The notes under the pieces: model-generated
Told to the model about the DNA's origin: nothing
The model's input: only the letters and a program-made list of their open reading frames with translations
Database searches by the model: none
Part shown: piece by piece, positions 3,354 through 10,962 of the stretch
Layout of the letters: each line of letters begins with the position of its first letter
Position numbering within the stretch: position 1 is the stretch's first letter
DNA from: Chloroflexota bacterium
GTDB lineage: Bacteria > Chloroflexota > Limnocylindria > Limnocylindrales > CSP1-4
Length of the DNA stretch: 10,962 nucleotides
Assembly (NCBI GenBank): GCA_021812735.1
Contig: JAKAMV010000242.1
Location: 1-10,962, forward strand
Direction of reading: 5' to 3'
Program-made: the position numbers and the translations under genes

Positions 3354-4727
3354 TCAGGCGCCAGGGGCCGCCCCAACCGCGGTCGGCGACGGCTCGTTCG
3401 GCAGTGCTGTCTTCATGTGGATCGAGAGGAACGCCCAGGCGTCCCAAGGGAGGTATCCGAGCTGCTCGAGCTTCTGCTGGGCGGTCGCTTGGTCCCACAA
3501 CTTGGCTTTGAACCCCGCGGCGATCTCTGCTGCGGTCAGTGTATGCACGTTGGCCGCGCGCTCATAGTCCCAGATTCCGACGATGTCCGCGATGCCCGAG
3601 TCGGGGAGCTTGAGCTGCGCGAGGGTGCCCAGGGCGGTGGCTCGGCTGATCTTGTGGCCGACGTAGAGCGTGTGGATCCGGCCGACCGCCGCGAGCAGGA
3701 ACCGCTGTTGCAGCTCCACGTCGACGATCGAGAGGATGAAGTCTGCCTCTTCGGCGGTGTAGCGCAGCGACTCAAGGAGGTTCAGCGCGGTCGGACGATC
3801 GATCAGCCTGTCGCGGTAGAGAGTGCGCACGATCGACTCAGCCAGGTCCTTGGTCTTGGCCAGCTTCTGCTGGGCCCCCGAGTCGACGTACGCGGCTGCC
3901 AGCTCGTCAGTCAGCCCCGACTTCTTGAGCAGCGCGACCGCCTGGTCGCGTGTCAGGCTCCCCTCGTGGAACATCGCGGTGACGGTGCGCGGCGGTGGCA
4001 GGTACTCGGAGAGCGCCCGGTACGGTTCGAGCCACTTGTTGCGATAGTGCGACTCCAAGACTGCCTGCTCGAACGAGACGACGCCCAGACCGCGCCCTTC
4101 CCACGGGATGACGCCGCGGTAGGCCATCGTGGCCGCCTCGAGCGGGGACGGGCCGGATCCGACTGTGCCCAGCAGCCAGTCCCACTGCGTGACGTCACCT
4201 CCGAACGCGGCGAACTTCGCCTTCGCCTCGTCGACGGAGAGCTGCCCCTCGACCGCCGCCGTCATCGCGTCCACCGGCGACGGCTGCTGGACCGCCAGCT
4301 CGCGGATCAGGTCGGCCCACTCGTCGCGCAGGCGGCCCTGGCGGATGCCGGTGAGATACCGCGCCTGGTCGATCAGCCCACGGCGCAGCGCCACGGCCAG
4401 ATCCCCAGGAGCGGGGGCGTCGCCGGTGTTCAGCACCATCTCGTGGAAGCGCGCCTCGTCGATCCCCGACTGGCGCGCCTCGCCGGCCGCCGACGCTTCG
4501 TCGCGGATGTTGCGGACCACGGCGAGCGCGAGATCTGCCGGCGAGAGCGGGACGAGCGGGGTCGCGCTGTTGACCGCGTTCGTCAGCGCCTGCTCGTACG
4601 GTGCGAGGACCGCGCCGACCGCAGCGCCGACGAGCTGCCAGAGGATGATCTGGAGCAGCGTGTTGTTGGTCAGGGCACCGAGCGGTCCGGCACCGGCACC
4701 TGCACCTGCTGGAGACTCTGCGACCAT
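3354..4727 (-). CDS. Membrane-anchored helical-repeat protein, 457 aa, probable virion protein
   Basis: 457 residues from ATG 4727, one base after the upstream stop. A start 39 codons earlier would overlap that gene by 116 bases with Cys/Arg-rich unlikely sequence and is rejected. A Gly/Ala-rich N-terminus leads into a hydrophobic segment (about 23-42, TLLQIILWQLVGAAVGAVLA), likely a membrane anchor. The rest is a chain of about eight similar helical modules of ~35-50 residues. Many open with a 'P.P' start and follow 'hydrophobic helix - G.I/L - helix - G' (openings near 61, 106, 149, 193, 244, 293, 344 and 396). A typical stretch is SPVDAMTAAVEGQLSVDEAK. No Walker motif, protease triad or other catalytic site is visible. 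It sits beside another membrane protein, just after lysis, so it may be a virion membrane or genome-delivery protein (inference). It is too short for a typical tape measure. Confidence 0.85.
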   Translation of the reverse strand: MVAESPAGAGAGAGPLGALTNNTLLQIILWQLVGAAVGAVLAPYEQALTNAVNSATPLVPLSPADLALAVVRNIRDEASAAGEARQSGIDEARFHEMVLNTGDAPAPGDLAVALRRGLIDQARYLTGIRQGRLRDEWADLIRELAVQQPSPVDAMTAAVEGQLSVDEAKAKFAAFGGDVTQWDWLLGTVGSGPSPLEAATMAYRGVIPWEGRGLGVVSFEQAVLESHYRNKWLEPYRALSEYLPPPRTVTAMFHEGSLTRDQAVALLKKSGLTDELAAAYVDSGAQQKLAKTKDLAESIVRTLYRDRLIDRPTALNLLESLRYTAEEADFILSIVDVELQQRFLLAAVGRIHTLYVGHKISRATALGTLAQLKLPDSGIADIVGIWDYERAANVHTLTAAEIAAGFKAKLWDQATAQQKLEQLGYLPWDAWAFLSIHMKTALPNEPSPTAVGAAPGA

Positions 4728-4728
4728 C

Positions 4729-5778
4729 TCAGACCCTGACTCCGAGCAGCGGACCCAGCACGTCGTCCACCCCCGAGCGCAGTGCACCGCTGGCGCCGGC
4801 GACCGCCTGCGCCGTCCCTTGTGGATCGCGGATCGCTGCACCAAGGAGCCCGATGAGGAGCCCCAACGTCGCAGCGTCGCCGATCGCCGTGAGCGACGGC
4901 AGCTGCGGCTTCAGGTAGTTGCAGGTCGGACCGACGCACTCGCGCTGCATGGTCTCGACGCGCTCGATCACCTGCGTGAGTTCCTGCACGAGGGGGACCG
5001 CGAGCAGCGGAGCCAGCTCCTTGGCCAGGTCGGTGATCTGCCCCTCGACCGCTTTGACGTCCGCCCCGATCGTCGTGTCCGCCCAGGTCCGGACGCCGGC
5101 GATCGCGGCCTCGAGCAGCGCGACCTTGGCAGCCAGCTCGTCGGCGAGCCTGGCGTCCCCCTCAGCGCGCGCCTGCGTCTCTGCGGCGACGGTCGTCTGC
5201 AGCTCGAGCTCCAGCTCGTGGGCACGTACGTCTGCCAGGTGCCGCACGCTCACGACCTGGGCATCGGTGTACGCCTGCGCTTGAGCGACCGCCTCCTGGC
5301 GCGCCGCGGGGATCGCCTGGTGGAGGAGGTTGGCGATCGCCGACCAGATCGCACGGTTGAGGGGAGAGAGCGCGGCGACGGCGGCAGCGATCTGGGCAAC
5401 CTTGCCAGTCAACTCCGAGATCGTCGACCAGAGCGCGCTCGGGGCCCCGGCGAGCACCGCCGCGAGCGCGCGCACCTGGGCGATCAGCCCCTCGATCATC
5501 CGCACGGTGCTGCTCAAGAACCGCGTCAGGGCAGCGACGGGCGCGCCGATGAGCTGCGTCACCGGCGCCGCCATACCGTCGGCCCAGGCGAGCGCCCGCG
5601 CGGCGACCGCTGCGAGCGCCGACGCGACGAACCCGGCGGCAGCTCCGCCGACGACAGGGATCTGCTGGAGCGTCCAGGTCAGCGGCTTGGAAAAGAGAAC
5701 GCCGACCGCCCAGGCGAGAAGGAGCCCCGCCAGCCCGATGATGACGAGGTCGAAGGGGACGTCGAGGAGCAGGGGCAT
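4729..5778 (-). CDS. Membrane protein with long coiled coil, 349 aa
   Basis: 349 residues from ATG 5778, with GAGGG about eight bases upstream and nine bases after the preceding stop. An N-terminal transmembrane helix (about 9-29, FDLVIIGLAGLLLAWAVGVL) is followed by a second hydrophobic, Gly/Ala-rich region (43-64). Residues about 160-278 are highly charged, Ala-rich and helical and read as a long coiled coil (for example ARQEAVAQAQAYTDAQ, RAHELELELQTTVAAE). A Cys pair, C281 and C286, may form a disulfide. A C-terminal hydrophobic helix (303-316) precedes an amphipathic tail. The hydrophobic-coil-hydrophobic layout suggests a protein that spans or fuses membranes. It is separated from the 457-aa membrane protein by one base, and the two probably act together. 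It could be an infection conduit or internal virion membrane protein; this is inference. Confidence 0.84.
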   Translation of the reverse strand: MPLLLDVPFDLVIIGLAGLLLAWAVGVLFSKPLTWTLQQIPVVGGAAAGFVASALAAVAARALAWADGMAAPVTQLIGAPVAALTRFLSSTVRMIEGLIAQVRALAAVLAGAPSALWSTISELTGKVAQIAAAVAALSPLNRAIWSAIANLLHQAIPAARQEAVAQAQAYTDAQVVSVRHLADVRAHELELELQTTVAAETQARAEGDARLADELAAKVALLEAAIAGVRTWADTTIGADVKAVEGQITDLAKELAPLLAVPLVQELTQVIERVETMQRECVGPTCNYLKPQLPSLTAIGDAATLGLLIGLLGAAIRDPQGTAQAVAGASGALRSGVDDVLGPLLGVRV

Positions 5779-6024: not shown

Positions 6025-7197
6025 CTACTGCGGCCTCGGGCCCGTACCGCCGCCGCCGGTGAGCGCGGCAAGATCCGCGTCGACCCGGGCGGCAAGCTCG
6101 GGCAGGGTGACGTTCACGAGCGTGCGAAGCTGGTCCCATGCCGTCAGCAGACCCGATACGCCCGGACCGGGGGACGGTACAGGCCCCGGAAGCGGCGCAG
6201 GGATCCCGGTCCCTCCACCGGACTCCGGCGGAGGAGCACCGCCGCCTCCCCCCGGCGGCGTCGTCGCACCGCCACCGCCACCCGCCGGTGGCGGCGTGGT
6301 GGACGTCCCGCTCGTGATGTGCGCCACCAGCGCACTCGCTTGCCCCTCGAGGTAGCTGACCCCGTCGTCGAGCGTGGGAGGGTGACCGAAGTGCTCGCCA
6401 CTCAACCCCTGCGCGGCAGCCCAGGGCGGGCCGAGCAGGCTCGTGCCGACGGCATGGGCTACGTCGACCAGGCCGACGTAGATCGGCGCCAAGAGGACCG
6501 TCGGGTCGGTTGCCCCCGAGGGCACCGCCGCCGGCGCGGCGACCGTCGCGTTGACGATCCCGCCCGGCCAGTTCGTCCGCGTCCAGAGCGCCAAGCTCCA
6601 GAGCTGCGCCGACAGGTAGGACGCCCCGTCAGCGAGCGATGGGACGTGCCCGAGGTGGTCCGGCGTCAGCCCCTGCACGGCCGCCCAGGGCGGGTCGGCG
6701 ATGTCCGACCCGAGCGCGTGCGCGAGCCCGACGACCGCCACGTAGAGGTCGCGGTAGGCGCTCGTCGGGTCGATCGTCGGCGTGCTCGTGCCCGCCAGTG
6801 GCGCCAGGACCGTCTCCCAGAGGTTGACGAGCGACTGACCAGGCGGCGAGCCGTAGTGCCCGGCGTCCCAGGGCGACTGCCCCAGTGCGCGGAGCGTGGC
6901 TTCGACACCCTGCCCGGCAGTGGCCAAGACGCCCGTGTAGAAGCCCAGACCGAGCGTGGCGATGTAGTCGTTCACGCCGGCCTGGAGGTCTGAGTAGGAC
7001 CAGAAGACCAGCTCGCCTGTGTGGGGGTCGGTGTGCTTGATCCCCGCGACGTTGTGGTCGACGACGAAGAGCGTCGAGGTGCCCCACCCCGTCTCGAGCG
7101 CCCACTGCGTCAGCACCGCCCAGGCGTCGATTCCCCGGGCAGCCTGGACCTGCCGAGCGTACGGCAGGAGCTCGCTGACGAAGTCCGCCGGCGTCAT
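6025..7197 (-). CDS. Peptidoglycan glucosaminidase (GH73/FlgJ-like) with duplicated module and Pro-Gly linker
   Basis: 390 residues. Residues 1-~136 match the GH73 N-acetylglucosaminidase domain (FlgJ/LytG type). 'AVLTQWALETGWGTS' carries the expected catalytic Glu (E35), 'HNVAGIK' (48-54) corresponds to the usual NLFGIK motif, and 'YSDLQAGVNDYI' (68-79) to the conserved Tyr region. Such enzymes cut the GlcNAc-MurNAc backbone of peptidoglycan. Two copies of a ~60-residue module follow (about 145-205 and 231-291), sharing H-A-[LV]-G, PPWAA.QGL, H.GH.P.L.DG.SYL. They are then followed by a Pro/Gly linker (299-348) and a short helical C-terminus with a Gly tail. The modules are probably wall-binding. 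There is no signal peptide, so release would depend on the holin-like protein encoded just upstream (ATGA overlap), unless it is a virion-borne lysin. Confidence 0.88.
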   Translation of the reverse strand: MTPADFVSELLPYARQVQAARGIDAWAVLTQWALETGWGTSTLFVVDHNVAGIKHTDPHTGELVFWSYSDLQAGVNDYIATLGLGFYTGVLATAGQGVEATLRALGQSPWDAGHYGSPPGQSLVNLWETVLAPLAGTSTPTIDPTSAYRDLYVAVVGLAHALGSDIADPPWAAVQGLTPDHLGHVPSLADGASYLSAQLWSLALWTRTNWPGGIVNATVAAPAAVPSGATDPTVLLAPIYVGLVDVAHAVGTSLLGPPWAAAQGLSGEHFGHPPTLDDGVSYLEGQASALVAHITSGTSTTPPPAGGGGGATTPPGGGGGAPPPESGGGTGIPAPLPGPVPSPGPGVSGLLTAWDQLRTLVNVTLPELAARVDADLAALTGGGGTGPRPQ

Positions 7198-7412
7198 GGC
7201 CCCTTGACCGGTGGCTTGGTCGTCAGGTCGAACGTCCCGGCCGTGCCGTTTGCCGTCTCGTTCGCCAGCACGCCGATGATGGCCGCCGCGAACGCGTTGA
7301 GCGCCGCGAGCTGCTGTGCGTCGAGATGGATCCCGACGACCAGGACGAGCACGTTGAGCGCCGCCGCAACGAGCCCCAGCCAGAGCGCTGGGTTCCGTCC
7401 CAAGATCATCAT
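7194..7412 (-). CDS. Holin-like two-TM membrane protein, 72 aa
   Basis: 72 residues. Two adjacent ATGs (7412 and 7409) follow GGGAGGA; the second gives the more usual spacing, so the protein may be 71 residues. Residues about 9-27 (ALWLGLVAAALNVLVLVVG) and 36-50 (AALNAFAAAIIGVLA) are transmembrane helices joined by a short polar turn. The C-terminal ~22 residues are polar with Lys/Pro. Small size, two helices and position directly before a muramidase with a four-base overlap fit a class II-type holin that lets the lysin reach the wall. The 'GR.PALWL.L.AA..N..V' start resembles small membrane proteins in many actinophage lysis cassettes (memory). Confidence 0.8.
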   Translation of the reverse strand: MMILGRNPALWLGLVAAALNVLVLVVGIHLDAQQLAALNAFAAAIIGVLANETANGTAGTFDLTTKPPVKGP

Positions 7413-7839: not shown

Positions 7840-8242
7840 AGAACAGCACGTCCGAGACGTCGGCAGATTGCGTCCCCGTATAGAGCGTCAGCAGCACCCG
7901 GATCTGCCACAGATCGCCGACCACGAAGTTGGGCGGCGTCCACGGCGACGCCAAGACAACCTGCACAACCGTGGGAACACCAGAAACGACCGGGTGCTGC
8001 GCCAGATTACTGATGTGCCCATGCTGGTCGATGAGCTGCCAGTTGAGGTATCCCGTCGCCCCCGCGGCCGTCCCGCCCTCGAGAACGCCTGACAAGATCC
8101 AGCCGAGAATCAACCCGTTCGGTGCTACAGCACCGTCTCGGTTGACGAACGCTCCTGCGCTGATCTGCGTCGTCGACGCCGTCAGCTGGGTGTTCTTCGT
8201 CTGGGCGACGATCCAGTCGGGAAGGTCGTTCGACATGATCAC
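7832..8242 (-). CDS. Beta-rich probable virion protein, 136 aa
   Basis: 136 residues if started at GTG 8242, which makes a GTGA overlap with the fibre gene; an ATG two codons on (8236) is equally plausible and has AAGG about ten bases upstream. After a short helix (DLPDWIVAQ) the protein is beta-rich: TQLTASTTQISAG, GLILGWILSG, TGYLNWQLIDQHGHI, VPTVVQVVLASPW, DLWQIRVLLTLYTG, DVSDVLFYA. The pattern resembles a jelly-roll carbohydrate-binding module, and it follows the fibre/spike gene directly. It may be a spike-associated or receptor-binding subunit (inference). No catalytic residues are evident. Confidence 0.76.
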   Translation of the reverse strand: MIMSNDLPDWIVAQTKNTQLTASTTQISAGAFVNRDGAVAPNGLILGWILSGVLEGGTAAGATGYLNWQLIDQHGHISNLAQHPVVSGVPTVVQVVLASPWTPPNFVVGDLWQIRVLLTLYTGTQSADVSDVLFYA

Positions 8243-9033
8243 GCGACCTTGACGGCGGTATAGCCGGTCGCAGTCGTCGCTGGCGTTGTCCCGTATGGAG
8301 CCACGATGACAGTCGACGCATTTCCGGTGGCGACATAGAGGCTGAGCGTCGCAGCCGCGCTCACCACTACCAACGTGGTCATCGAGAGTTCAACGTAGCC
8401 GCCAGAGAGCGCCGGCAGCTCGCTGTCAGCCTGCGTCGGTCCGTTGAGTGTCGCGGTCCCGGATGCCACGACGTCCCACGCAGACGCCAATGCCGCCGTC
8501 GCCGCACCGTTCGCGATCGCCAAGTTCCACGTGACAAGCCACGTGCCAACGGCGAGAGTCCCCGTAGTCATCACGAGCGTGTTCGTCCCACCCGCCACTG
8601 AGACGTTCGCGCTGAGCACCCCCGAGACGACACTGAGCGCCGGGCTCGGCGCCGCCGGCAACCCGTGATCATGGTCCGCCCTGGCGTCGGCGGCCGACGT
8701 CCCGACGGCGGCTGCCGCACCGTAGGCATCGGGTCCCACCACGGTGGTGGCGGCCGGCGGAGCGGGGTTCGCCGGCAACCCGTGATCATGGTCCGCTCTG
8801 GCGTAGGCGGTCGACGTCCCGACGGCGGCTGGGGCCCCGAAGACATCGGGTCCCACCACGGTGGTGGCGGCCGGCGGAGCGGGGTTCGCCGGCAACCCGT
8901 GGTCGTGATCGGCTCGCGCCGCCGATGTCGACGTGCCGACGGCGGCTGGGGCCCCGAAGGCATCGGGCCCCACCACGGTGGTCGCCAGCGGCGGCCCCCC
9001 GGCGCCAGAGATCGTACGGAACTCGACGCCCAT
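8239..9033 (-). CDS. Fibre/spike protein with three HxH repeats and beta-sandwich head
   Basis: 264 residues. ATG 9033 shares one base with the preceding stop (TGATG), with GGAG about nine bases upstream. After a 14-residue start come three tandem 39-residue repeats (15-53, 54-92, 93-131), each containing 'TTVVGPD.(F/Y)GA.AAVGTS...ARADHDHGLPA'. Every copy keeps an HxH motif (H43/H45, H82/H84, H121/H123). In the T4 long tail fibre tip, HxH motifs from three chains bind iron along a trimer axis, so this is probably a trimeric metal-braced stalk. Residues 132-264 are beta-rich and end 'ATGYTAVKVA', resembling the TNF/C1q-like heads of fibres and spikes. Role: host attachment. Both tailed phages and tailless viruses (for example PRD1 P5) carry stalk-plus-beta-head spikes, so this does not decide the morphology. 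Confidence 0.82.
   Translation of the reverse strand: MGVEFRTISGAGGPPLATTVVGPDAFGAPAAVGTSTSAARADHDHGLPANPAPPAATTVVGPDVFGAPAAVGTSTAYARADHDHGLPANPAPPAATTVVGPDAYGAAAAVGTSAADARADHDHGLPAAPSPALSVVSGVLSANVSVAGGTNTLVMTTGTLAVGTWLVTWNLAIANGAATAALASAWDVVASGTATLNGPTQADSELPALSGGYVELSMTTLVVVSAAATLSLYVATGNASTVIVAPYGTTPATTATGYTAVKVA
8641..8991 (-). repeat. Three tandem 117-bp in-frame repeats
   Basis: The repeat units encode the three 39-residue HxH modules of the fibre gene. The landmark CATCGGG on the plus strand recurs at 8727, 8844 and 8961, exactly 117 bp apart. The two copies nearer the N-terminus are more alike (PAAVGTST, GLPANPAP) than the third (AAAVGTSA, GLPAAPSP), suggesting stepwise duplication. 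Each unit also contains the short palindrome CCACCAC-G-GTGGTGG, except that the copy nearest the start is altered at its edge. Confidence 0.9.
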
Positions 9034-9340: not shown

Positions 9341-9355
9341 CCGAGCCTAGCTCGG
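9341..9355 (-). other. Short hairpin with the stop codon of the 269-aa gene in its loop
   Basis: CCGAGC (9341-9346) and GCTCGG (9350-9355) form a perfect six-base stem whose three-base loop is the stop codon TAG (9347-9349 on the minus strand). No T-run follows, so termination is not expected. A second, stronger hairpin lies about 46 bases downstream in the next gene. Together they could stabilise the 3' end of the capsid-candidate message. Confidence 0.35.
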
Positions 9356-10156
9356 CAGATTCTGCGCGAGCTCGGCCATGTAGAGCACGACGTCACAGGC
9401 CGCCGCCGTCGCCGCGCTCGAGATGATCGACACGTAGATCCCGCCGGCGTTGGCGGAGTTGAGCACCGGGATGCAGGGCAGCCCGGACGCCATGGACAGC
9501 TCCACGAAGTACTTGCGCGTGGCTCCGGCGCGGAGGACGCCCGGCCCGGAAACGCGCAGGTTTCCGGTGTCGATCCCCTTGACCGCCACAGCCGCCACTG
9601 CCGTGTCCACGCTGTAGCCCAGCACGGCGTAGTCGGTGTTGGCGTGGAGCAGGTTCTCGGTCGTCGTCAGCAAGGTGTCGTACCACGCCCCGGCCGTGTT
9701 CGCCGCGGACGGGATCGTGACCACCACCGGCTTGATCGACTTGACGATCCCCGCGATGTCCCCCGGACTGTGGAGCCGTGCGGCAGACCCCGGCAGCTGG
9801 GAGTAGTAGACGAGCAGCGCACCGAGCGCCTTGCCGGTCGTCGCTGCCGTACTGAACTCGAACGTCAGCGTGTCCTGCGGCTCCAAGACCTGGGCCATCT
9901 CGGCGGTCAAGAGCGACTCCGACGGTGTCTGCCCAGGGTAGAACTGGATGCCCCGCACATTGTCGTGCAGGAGCGGGCTGCGAACGCGCCACGGCGCCAC
10001 CGCCGTGACCGCGTCGTAGTACGCCGCCAACAGTTTGGCGGTCGCTGTGTTTGGGAAGTTCCGGACTGTGGCGCTGTCGCCCGACGCCATCGTCCCCGCG
10101 GCGAAGCTCGCGCCAGACGTCGCTTGAAACGACGCGATCGTGTCGATTGCCGGCAT
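9347..10156 (-). CDS. Candidate major capsid protein with two similar beta domains, 269 aa
   Basis: 269 residues; ATG 10156 has GAGGAGG about seven bases upstream, the best site in the structural block, fitting high expression. The sequence is beta-rich with few charges. It seems internally duplicated: 'TLTFEFSTAATTGKALGALL' plus VYYSQL (96-121) resembles 'IYVSIISSAATAAACDVVLY' plus MAEL (240-263). 'VRNFPNTATAKLLAAYY' (31-47) resembles 'VTIPSAANTAGAWYDTL' (146-162). Two such domains of ~90-120 residues suggest a double jelly roll, the fold of PRD1/PM2-type capsid proteins; I recall PM2's P2 being similar in size. Conserved-looking points include RVRSPLLHDNVRGI (57-70) and GLPCIPVLNSANAGG (225-239). 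Alternatives are a tail-tube or other abundant virion protein of a tailed phage. The fold is an inference from reading. Confidence 0.55.
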   Translation of the reverse strand: MPAIDTIASFQATSGASFAAGTMASGDSATVRNFPNTATAKLLAAYYDAVTAVAPWRVRSPLLHDNVRGIQFYPGQTPSESLLTAEMAQVLEPQDTLTFEFSTAATTGKALGALLVYYSQLPGSAARLHSPGDIAGIVKSIKPVVVTIPSAANTAGAWYDTLLTTTENLLHANTDYAVLGYSVDTAVAAVAVKGIDTGNLRVSGPGVLRAGATRKYFVELSMASGLPCIPVLNSANAGGIYVSIISSAATAAACDVVLYMAELAQNLPS

Positions 10157-10185: not shown

Positions 10186-10596
10186 CTAGCGCCGCTGGAA
10201 CTGGGACATGTGCCGCACCCAGCCGGTCATGCGCGCGATGTTCTGCTCGAGGTTGCCCCGAGCTGGCAGGGCCTGCACACCAGACGCGATGTACGGCAGG
10301 AGCTGGCTCATGAACGCCTGCATCTTCGGCTGGGCCGCCGTGGCGCCCGACGCCACCCTCGGGATCCCCTTGGTGACGACCGCCTGCTGCCACTCGGTCA
10401 AGCTGACCGAGCTGACACGCGACGCCCACTTGTCCTGTGCCGCGGCGACGTTCTGCGCCCAGACCTGCTTCTGCCGAGCGGCAGCCTGGCCGGGTGCGGT
10501 GCGCACACCCTCCACGCCGGACTGGATCCGCTGGGTCGACGCCCCCAGGTTCTGCGCCCACTTCGCGGCTGCCGCGTCGGGGGTCGGGATTGCCAT
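10186..10596 (-). CDS. Helical protein upstream of the capsid candidate, 136 aa
   Basis: 136 residues. ATG 10596 has AAGGAG about eight bases upstream and lies two bases after the preceding stop. An in-frame extension over the zinc-ribbon gene is rejected because it lacks a site and is Arg/Gly-rich. Composition is helical: AAAKWAQNLGASTQRIQSGV and later KQVWAQNVAAAQDKWASRVS, two related segments with the shared core K.(V)WAQN. The second half has VSLTEWQQAVVTKGIPRVAS and a PKMQAFMSQLLPYI helix. The pattern 'AKW..N......I..GV..V..APG..AA' plus 'VSL..W...V...GI.R(I/V)..GA' appears familiar from metagenomic phage structural regions. Lying immediately before the capsid candidate, it could be a scaffold or assembly protein (inference). 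Confidence 0.78.
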   Translation of the reverse strand: MAIPTPDAAAAKWAQNLGASTQRIQSGVEGVRTAPGQAAARQKQVWAQNVAAAQDKWASRVSSVSLTEWQQAVVTKGIPRVASGATAAQPKMQAFMSQLLPYIASGVQALPARGNLEQNIARMTGWVRHMSQFQRR

Positions 10597-10598
10597 CG

Positions 10599-10796
10599 TC
10601 AAACTCCTTGCACTCGCCGCGCCTGGCGCCAGCGGACGGCCCGCCGCGCTTGAGCGCCCACTGAAAGTCGAACCGCGTTCTCGACCGACCGCCGAACGCC
10701 GCAGGAGACGCAGACGCGGGCCCGGTCGGATCGCCACCGCCGGACCACTACGGTGCCACAATCTTCACAAGCGAACGGCTTGGTCGTCACGCTCAT
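10599..10796 (-). CDS. Zinc-ribbon microprotein, first gene of the operon
   Basis: 65 residues. C10-x2-C13 (CEDCG) and C29-x2-C32 (CVSCG) make a classic four-cysteine zinc ribbon, followed by an Arg-rich, probably nucleic-acid-binding tail (VRLSVGAQARRAVRWRQARR). There is no Shine-Dalgarno before ATG 10796. The -10 element of the adjacent promoter ends six bases before it, so the mRNA should begin at or next to the ATG and be read as a leaderless message. Being first in a long structural operon, it might regulate late transcription or bind the genome during packaging. Both are inference. Confidence 0.78.
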   Translation of the reverse strand: MSVTTKPFACEDCGTVVVRRWRSDRARVCVSCGVRRSVENAVRLSVGAQARRAVRWRQARRVQGV

Positions 10797-10802
10797 GCCG
10801 AC

Positions 10803-10831
10803 GTGATACGCCCGAGTGAGAGGATTGTCAA
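10803..10831 (-). promoter_or_regulatory. Sigma70-type promoter for the structural/lysis operon, predicted leaderless
   Basis: On the minus strand, a perfect TTGACA (-35, 10826-10831) is followed after exactly 17 bases by TATCAC (-10, 10803-10808). The expected start, about seven bases past the -10, falls at the ATG of the zinc-ribbon gene (10796). Both this and the second promoter (2520-2548) share a perfect -35, a 17-bp spacer and GTCGG directly after the -10, suggesting a common design. There is no palindrome in this spacer. Confidence 0.65.
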
Positions 10832-10962
10832 GTCGTTACCGGCGACCTACCACCTCCCCGAGGTCGGCACGGGGCGCTCGAGCATGTTTCACGTGAAACA
10901 ATCGCCTCTCCCCCCAGAGCCGCCAGAACGCCCCGTAGCGCCCCGCAGACCCCACACCCGAA
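10832..10962. other. Apparent intergenic region at right edge containing parS
   Basis: This stretch upstream of the operon promoter holds the parS site and is strongly C-rich on the plus strand. A near-direct repeat GCGCCCCG-like (ACGCCCCGT / GCGCCCCGC, about 10929-10946) is too short to call iterons. A minus-strand frame is open from the right edge to a TAA at 10836-10838 (with RYGAFWRLWGERRLFHVKH in its translation) and could be the C-terminus of a gene outside the window. At only ~127 bases in GC-rich DNA this is weak. No tRNA or terminator was seen. Confidence 0.5.
10885..10900. promoter_or_regulatory. parS: parS: perfect consensus ParB-binding palindrome
   Basis: TGTTTCACGTGAAACA is a perfect 16-bp palindrome identical to the consensus chromosomal parS recognised by the ParB/Spo0J/Noc-related CTPase clamp proteins of most bacteria, including Actinobacteria (core GTTTCACGTGAAAC). 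Chance occurrence of a given 16-mer in 11 kb is very small. It lies 53 bases upstream of the -35 box of the structural-operon promoter. ParB loads at such sites and spreads over neighbouring DNA, so the site could serve partition of an extrachromosomal phage genome or influence the nearby promoter. No parA or parB gene is in the window. Confidence 0.88.

Follow-up and report, generated by a model that had tools for sequence, protein, structure and literature searches.

Why would a viral genome carry a bacterial centromere? The DNA analysed here (the window, a stretch of 10,962 nt at 69.5% GC) contains at 10885-10900 the 16-bp sequence TGTTTCACGTGAAACA, which we take to be the chromosomal (host-type) parS consensus of the ParABS system. 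A preliminary description had called it a perfect consensus parS, placed it beside a phage structural-operon promoter with no parAB in view, and proposed that the virus borrows the partition machinery of its host. Our preferred reading, to which we give an even chance, is that the virus borrows host ParB through this site, as phage phi29 does with Spo0J.

The parS site and the operon beside it

The site itself is confirmed at 16 of 16 bases. A scan of the whole window found the 16-mer as an exact, single copy, and no second position matched parS at up to three mismatches. None of 200 dinucleotide-preserving shuffles contained a match, and the i.i.d. expectation for the 16-mer is 1.3e-7. The same 16 bases are the sole perfect even-length palindrome of at least 14 bases in the window. 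To the right, 62 bp (10901-10962) separate parS from the end of the window, a segment presumed, from genome sizes and the geometry of a relative described below, to lie near the right genome terminus. A reading frame that starts inside parS (MFHVKQ) was rejected as a gene: it is Pro/Arg-rich, reaches the window end and is unsupported.

To the left of parS, after a gap of 53 bp, the minus strand reads as a promoter-like pair, TTGACA (10831-10826) and TATCAC (10808-10803) with 17 nt between them, and we treat 10803-10831 as a candidate sigma-70-like promoter. The first ATG follows at 10796, 7 nt past the -10 element. This arrangement (10796-10831) puts the start of transcription at about the first ATG, so the mRNA is possibly leaderless. 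An automatic promoter scan of 10550-10962 returned no sites because its rule accepts only -10 elements with T as their sixth base.

The operon runs leftward on the minus strand and combines structural-type and lysis genes. Its first gene (10599-10796) encodes a 65-aa protein that matches PF24458 (DUF7573, E 2.9e-8) and carries paired CxxC motifs, which by our reading may form a zinc ribbon. Next come an ORF for a 136-aa protein (10186-10596) just upstream of the capsid-like gene, the putative major capsid protein of 269 aa (9347-10156), and a 264-aa protein (8239-9033) with three ARADHDHGLPA-type units, which at a guess could be spike- or fibre-like. These are followed by a holin (7194-7412; phrog_9752, E 1.1e-7), an endolysin with a glucosaminidase domain (6025-7197; PF01832, E 1.3e-11; phrog_3513), and a 349-aa protein without assigned function (4729-5778). 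The 136-, 264- and 349-aa proteins have no PHROG or Pfam match. A gene farther left (3354-4724) encodes a 456-aa, mostly helical protein that serves as a family marker. It has 382 homologs at E <=1e-3 among the candidates scored, and its model is helical (pLDDT 84, pTM 0.43).

What kind of virus does this operon belong to? AlphaFold modelled the 269-aa protein at pLDDT 90.2 with both halves as jelly rolls, and the best Foldseek matches of the model were PM2 P2, PR772 and PRD1 P3, and the GC1 capsid protein, all at low TM-scores. With moderate confidence, the model points to a tandem double-jelly-roll capsid protein of the tectivirus/PM2-like kind. The earlier placing of parS beside a phage structural-operon promoter thus survives in part. 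The promoter-like pair lies 53 bp off and the kind of operon was read correctly, but the capsid-like protein is of the tailless, double-jelly-roll type and the promoter does not register in the automatic scan. We rejected a tailed phage, as none of the ORFs scanned matched a terminase, portal or tail family. Host chromosome was rejected on the lysis genes and the capsid-like protein, with no chromosomal gene recognised among the ORFs scanned. Family profiles found no packaging ATPase of the P9/A32 type in the ORFs scanned, and no gene of the window could be assigned to replication, a terminal protein or lysogeny. Taken as a whole, the window is one arm of an uncultured virus, apparently from an undescribed group.

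Hundreds to more than 1,000 homologs of the lineage were found, many on contigs of ~14 kb, with four contigs in GTDB genomes and none in IMG/VR. Among GTDB contigs, the 456-aa protein had two matches and the capsid-like protein none. Searches of whole genomes with the capsid profile were positive in 1 of 2 (G002), 1 of 400 (G002 again), 0 of 27, 1 of 110 (G002 once more) and 1 of 396 (G519). Single homologs came from Limnocylindria, Baltobacteraceae and Thermoanaerobaculia MAGs, which are weak hints of host. Peptide-pattern scans of IMG/VR with the capsid-like protein, the 456-aa protein and the polymerase-like protein of the relative L123 (see below) found no relatives. Phage and plasmid records yielded one capsid match, at 27% identity and outside the plasmids, and nothing for the 456-aa protein, 8 kb of window DNA or the L123 polymerase. 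Local tblastn of the 23 window ORFs against 121 loci returned only that same capsid record and one marginal match at E 0.01. The record is a 3,063-bp circular Inoviridae sp. entry (MW202783), in which a protein at 1863-2405 is 27% identical to part of the putative capsid, an odd match for a filamentous phage.

Genome ends, relatives and ParB genes

The meaning of parS depends on where it lies in the complete genome. We surveyed the longest contigs of the best 120 homologs of three genes (capsid, 456-aa protein and polymerase), which gave 119 distinct values of at least 7 kb. They peaked at 13.5-14.5 kb with 34, against 7 at 13.0-13.5 kb, 3 at 14.5-15.0 kb and 5 above. Twelve values between 13,341 and 14,379 bp were common to all three genes, as expected for complete genomes, if equal values are taken as the same contig.

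The arm absent from the window is spanned by L123, an 8,101-bp contig from an Actinobacteria MAG that stops ~240 nt past the gene for a 697-aa protein. Searches with this protein gave no sequence match in PHROG, NCBIfam or PDB and no relevant family in Pfam. By hhalign, 414 columns of its profile aligned to a profile of phi29-type DNA polymerases, exonuclease and polymerase motifs included (84.8% probability, E 6.6e-6, in a single profile comparison), versus 0.3% with an unrelated profile. The reference profile recovers the phi29 polymerase structure. The alignment suggests that the 697-aa protein is a remote member of the protein-primed group of family B DNA polymerases, which makes a linear protein-primed genome likely, though not proven, for L123 and, through this relative, for the window virus. 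Together, the L123 arm (7,233 bp) and the window arm (7,608 bp) amount to 14.8 kb, so the right end of the window, and parS with it, should lie near a genome terminus. Compared in search of inverted terminal repeats, the terminal sequences of the window and L123, which come from different viruses, were no more similar than shuffles.

Two whole-genome matches to the capsid were found, both distant: L126, from a Chloroflexi MAG and with a capsid 30% identical, and L128, of 13,649 bp. Neither contains parS at up to three mismatches, and the same search was negative in the partial contigs L122 and L123.

The statement that parS stands without parAB in view held up for the ORFs scanned. Neither ParA nor ParB was found with Pfam in 18 of the 23 listed window ORFs, the other five being short or overlapping, while ~3 kb of the genome lies outside the window; nor was a ParB found in 10 ORFs of L123, which covers the missing arm. 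Extending the search for parB to relatives gave a mixed answer, with these negatives on one side and L128 on the other. At 10400-11224 of its plus strand, among genes that point away from the capsid operon, L128 encodes a 274-aa protein with a ParB_N match above the cut-off (PF02195, 36.5 bits, E 5.2e-9). The same protein scored 17.7 bits for HTH_ParB, below the cut-off, and 52.8 bits for TIGR00180 against a cut-off of 58.45. Because L128 has no parS at up to three mismatches, its ParB, if functional, would read another site. The family of the window virus meets ParB biology in two ways, as parS and as a ParB_N protein, and the two were never seen together.

Could the window virus nonetheless encode its own ParB-like protein in the ~3 kb outside the window, with parS as the cognate site? 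The ParB_N protein of the distant L128 speaks for this. Yet L123, a closer relative that contains the missing arm, shows none among 10 ORFs scanned, and L128 itself lacks parS at up to three mismatches. Moreover, we infer that the polymerase would fill most of the space left by a 13,854-bp sibling contig, whose capsid-like protein is 96% identical. We therefore regard a ParB of the virus's own as unlikely.

parS sites in other viral genomes

Among 20 cultured phages searched at up to one mismatch, phi29 carries four one-mismatch sites of the sequence TGTTCCACGTGAAACA, AD70P2 has one site and Voltaire two exact ones; the other 17, including all five tectiviruses, have none. In Glutamicibacter phage Voltaire (8742-8776), the two exact sites start 19 bp apart, at 8742 and 8761, between an annotated amidase gene and the major tail protein gene (8797).

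Terminal parS is also present in a phi29-superfamily phage, L070 (PF03175, PF05894, PF25622). Its genome ends in a perfect inverted terminal repeat (ITR) of 150 bp, and both copies of the repeat hold an exact parS, at 132-147 and 11579-11594. Among 13 relatives of L070 in IMG/VR, three carry parS with one mismatch no more than 160 nt from an end: L136 inside a 127-bp ITR, L130 near both ends and L129 at one end. L131 has two-mismatch sites within 240 nt of both ends and one exact internal site. The remaining 9 of 13 have no terminal parS, four of them with ITRs of at least 107 bp. Eight of the 34 phages checked held 18 sites in total at up to one mismatch, where the control averaged 0.017 sites, and 26 genomes had none. 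Since it was parS that brought L070 into the set, this phage is not an independent case; leaving it out gives 16 sites in 7 of 33 genomes.

These genomes also bear on a regulatory interpretation. Host ParB spreading from parS could silence or time the structural promoter, at a distance of 53 bp; the late operon would then follow the ParB/CTP state of the host, and segregation would be secondary. Such a switch has the promoter-like pair in its favour, as well as the Voltaire sites just upstream of a major tail protein gene, and KorB, a ParB-family clamp, is reported to silence distant promoters on plasmid RK2 (PMC11790492). Against it, the sites of L070, L130 and L136 occur at both genome ends and not just by a late promoter, and the promoter pair in the window was not reported by the automatic scan. 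Moreover, chromosomal ParB often affects transcription only mildly. On balance, we consider a primarily regulatory role improbable and borrowing for segregation the better account.

Exact parS is widespread in uncultured viral sequences. At least 120 IMG/VR stretches contain it, compared with 5 that contain a control palindrome matched in composition. The excess, at least 24-fold, is a lower bound measured with a single control palindrome on a sample that was not random. Among 120 parS records (L001-L120), ParB_N was matched in four (2/50, 2/50 and 0/20 in three batches), three of them above the cut-off, and 116 gave no match; many of the records are fragments, so the ParB count is a lower bound. 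The Pfam ParB_N profile was positive in 10 of 14 known genomes used as a control, and a custom ParB search seeded with the L128 protein found nothing in the 120 loci. Several records without a ParB_N match hold clusters of exact parS, with five sites each in L016 and L043 and three each in L052 and L062.

Placement leans towards intergenic DNA and contig ends. In 64 parS records that were available whole, we counted ORFs of at least 90 aa. Sites fell outside ORFs in 47 of 80 cases, compared with 449 of 3200 random positions. In 15 of the 64 records, parS lay within 250 nt of the record end against 5.4 expected, a number reached in 1 of 2000 simulations, although assembly breaks will account for part of these ends. 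The effect was weaker at 500 nt (17 of 64 against 10.4 expected; 50 of 2000 simulations).

This abundance tells against the view that the palindrome is an operator of some other viral or host regulator, or a replication or packaging signal, and resembles parS by coincidence. Palindromes that lie close to termini and promoters commonly act as operators, the window has one site, and the distant relatives L126 and L128 have none. However, all 16 bases match where the i.i.d. expectation is 1.3e-7, and parS, in contrast to the one composition-matched control palindrome, is frequent in viral contigs. Coincidence is accordingly quite improbable in our judgement. An assembly artefact or a piece of host chromosome near oriC, which the closeness of parS to the contig end might suggest, is very unlikely: a single operon combines lysis genes with the gene for a capsid-like protein, there are hundreds of homologs of which many are on ~14 kb contigs, and no chromosomal gene was recognised among the ORFs scanned.

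Proposed borrowing of host ParB, and known systems

How would borrowing of host ParB work? The protein would recognise the perfect parS, close as a CTP clamp and slide into the viral DNA. Host ParA and ParB would then handle the viral genome: during its persistence as a linear, plasmid-like or carrier-state molecule, they would co-segregate it or park it together with the origin of the host. ParB accumulates only on closed DNA, and in vitro an open end can be capped by a bound protein (PMC7053999). On a linear genome, a terminal protein could supply the roadblock that ParB clamps require close to the end of the molecule. For the window virus, we infer the linear genome, the proximity of the terminus, ParB binding and the benefit to segregation alike.

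The proposal made at the outset, that the virus borrows host ParABS, finds partial support. A host-consensus parS is present in a viral genome, the ORFs scanned contain no ParB, and there is precedent: entrapment of the phi29 genome in the spore is reported to involve host Spo0J (PMC9437464, citing Meijer et al. 2005). Lysogenic tectiviruses persist extrachromosomally without an integrase (PMC11768872), and for a virus with that lifestyle a borrowed partition system would pay. On the other side, parS is absent from the distant relatives L126 and L128, from the five tectiviruses and from 26 of 34 protein-primed phages, the capsid call has low TM-scores behind it, and the polymerase call one profile comparison. 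The window also holds a single parS. Host parS arrays often hold several sites.

A broader idea is more tentative, and we rate it as possible but doubtful. Unrelated small linear protein-primed viruses, some with double-jelly-roll capsids and others phi29-like, may independently have placed a host centromere at or near their ends without a parB. ParB clamps held in place by the terminal protein would make such a genome a passenger of host segregation, and orphan host-type parS would be a general viral device. Borrowing of host ParB is precedented, and its mechanism is not new in kind; the virus group, the terminal placement and the apparent breadth of parS carriage look new. Among the open-licence papers listed in a literature search, none dealt with parS in tectiviruses or in the terminal repeats of phages.

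If viruses routinely carry a host centromere without a partition gene, then 16 bp could secure them stable inheritance, a position at the origin or information on the cell-cycle state of the host. The phi29/Spo0J case would then also cover a group of viruses that are probably tailless, along with phages whose terminal repeats contain parS. A further question becomes accessible to experiment: how can a ParB clamp operate beside the end of a linear genome when, in vitro, it needs DNA that is closed?

Bacillus phage phi29 is one of the closest known systems. It is protein-primed, has host-type parS and no ParB_N match of its own, and host Spo0J is reported to take part in trapping its genome in the spore (PMC9437464). 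Unlike the window virus, with one perfect site near its presumed terminus and a probable double-jelly-roll capsid, phi29 is tailed and its one-mismatch sites are scattered. The Astrithrvirus-like members of the phi29 superfamily (L070, L129, L130, L136) share parS within 160 nt of their ends and the lack of a ParB_N match. They differ in genome size, 11-12 kb, and the polymerase, packaging and capsid genes of L070 are of the phi29 type.

Tectiviridae (PRD1, GC1, Forthebois, MuffinTheCat, LNA9) resemble the window virus in its predicted jelly-roll capsid fold and, as far as its family can be reconstructed, in a ~15 kb genome and a protein-primed-type polymerase. In contrast to it, the five records lack parS, and the phage collection gave no sequence match between them and the window's capsid-like protein. 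Chromosomal ParABS uses the same 16-bp consensus. Chromosomal parS lies near oriC, often in several copies and with parAB close by, whereas the window parS sits in a virus with no parAB in view. P1-type plasmid prophages, finally, are likewise viruses that use a centromere. P1 supplies its own ParA and ParB together with its own centromere site, whereas the site in the window is the consensus of the host.
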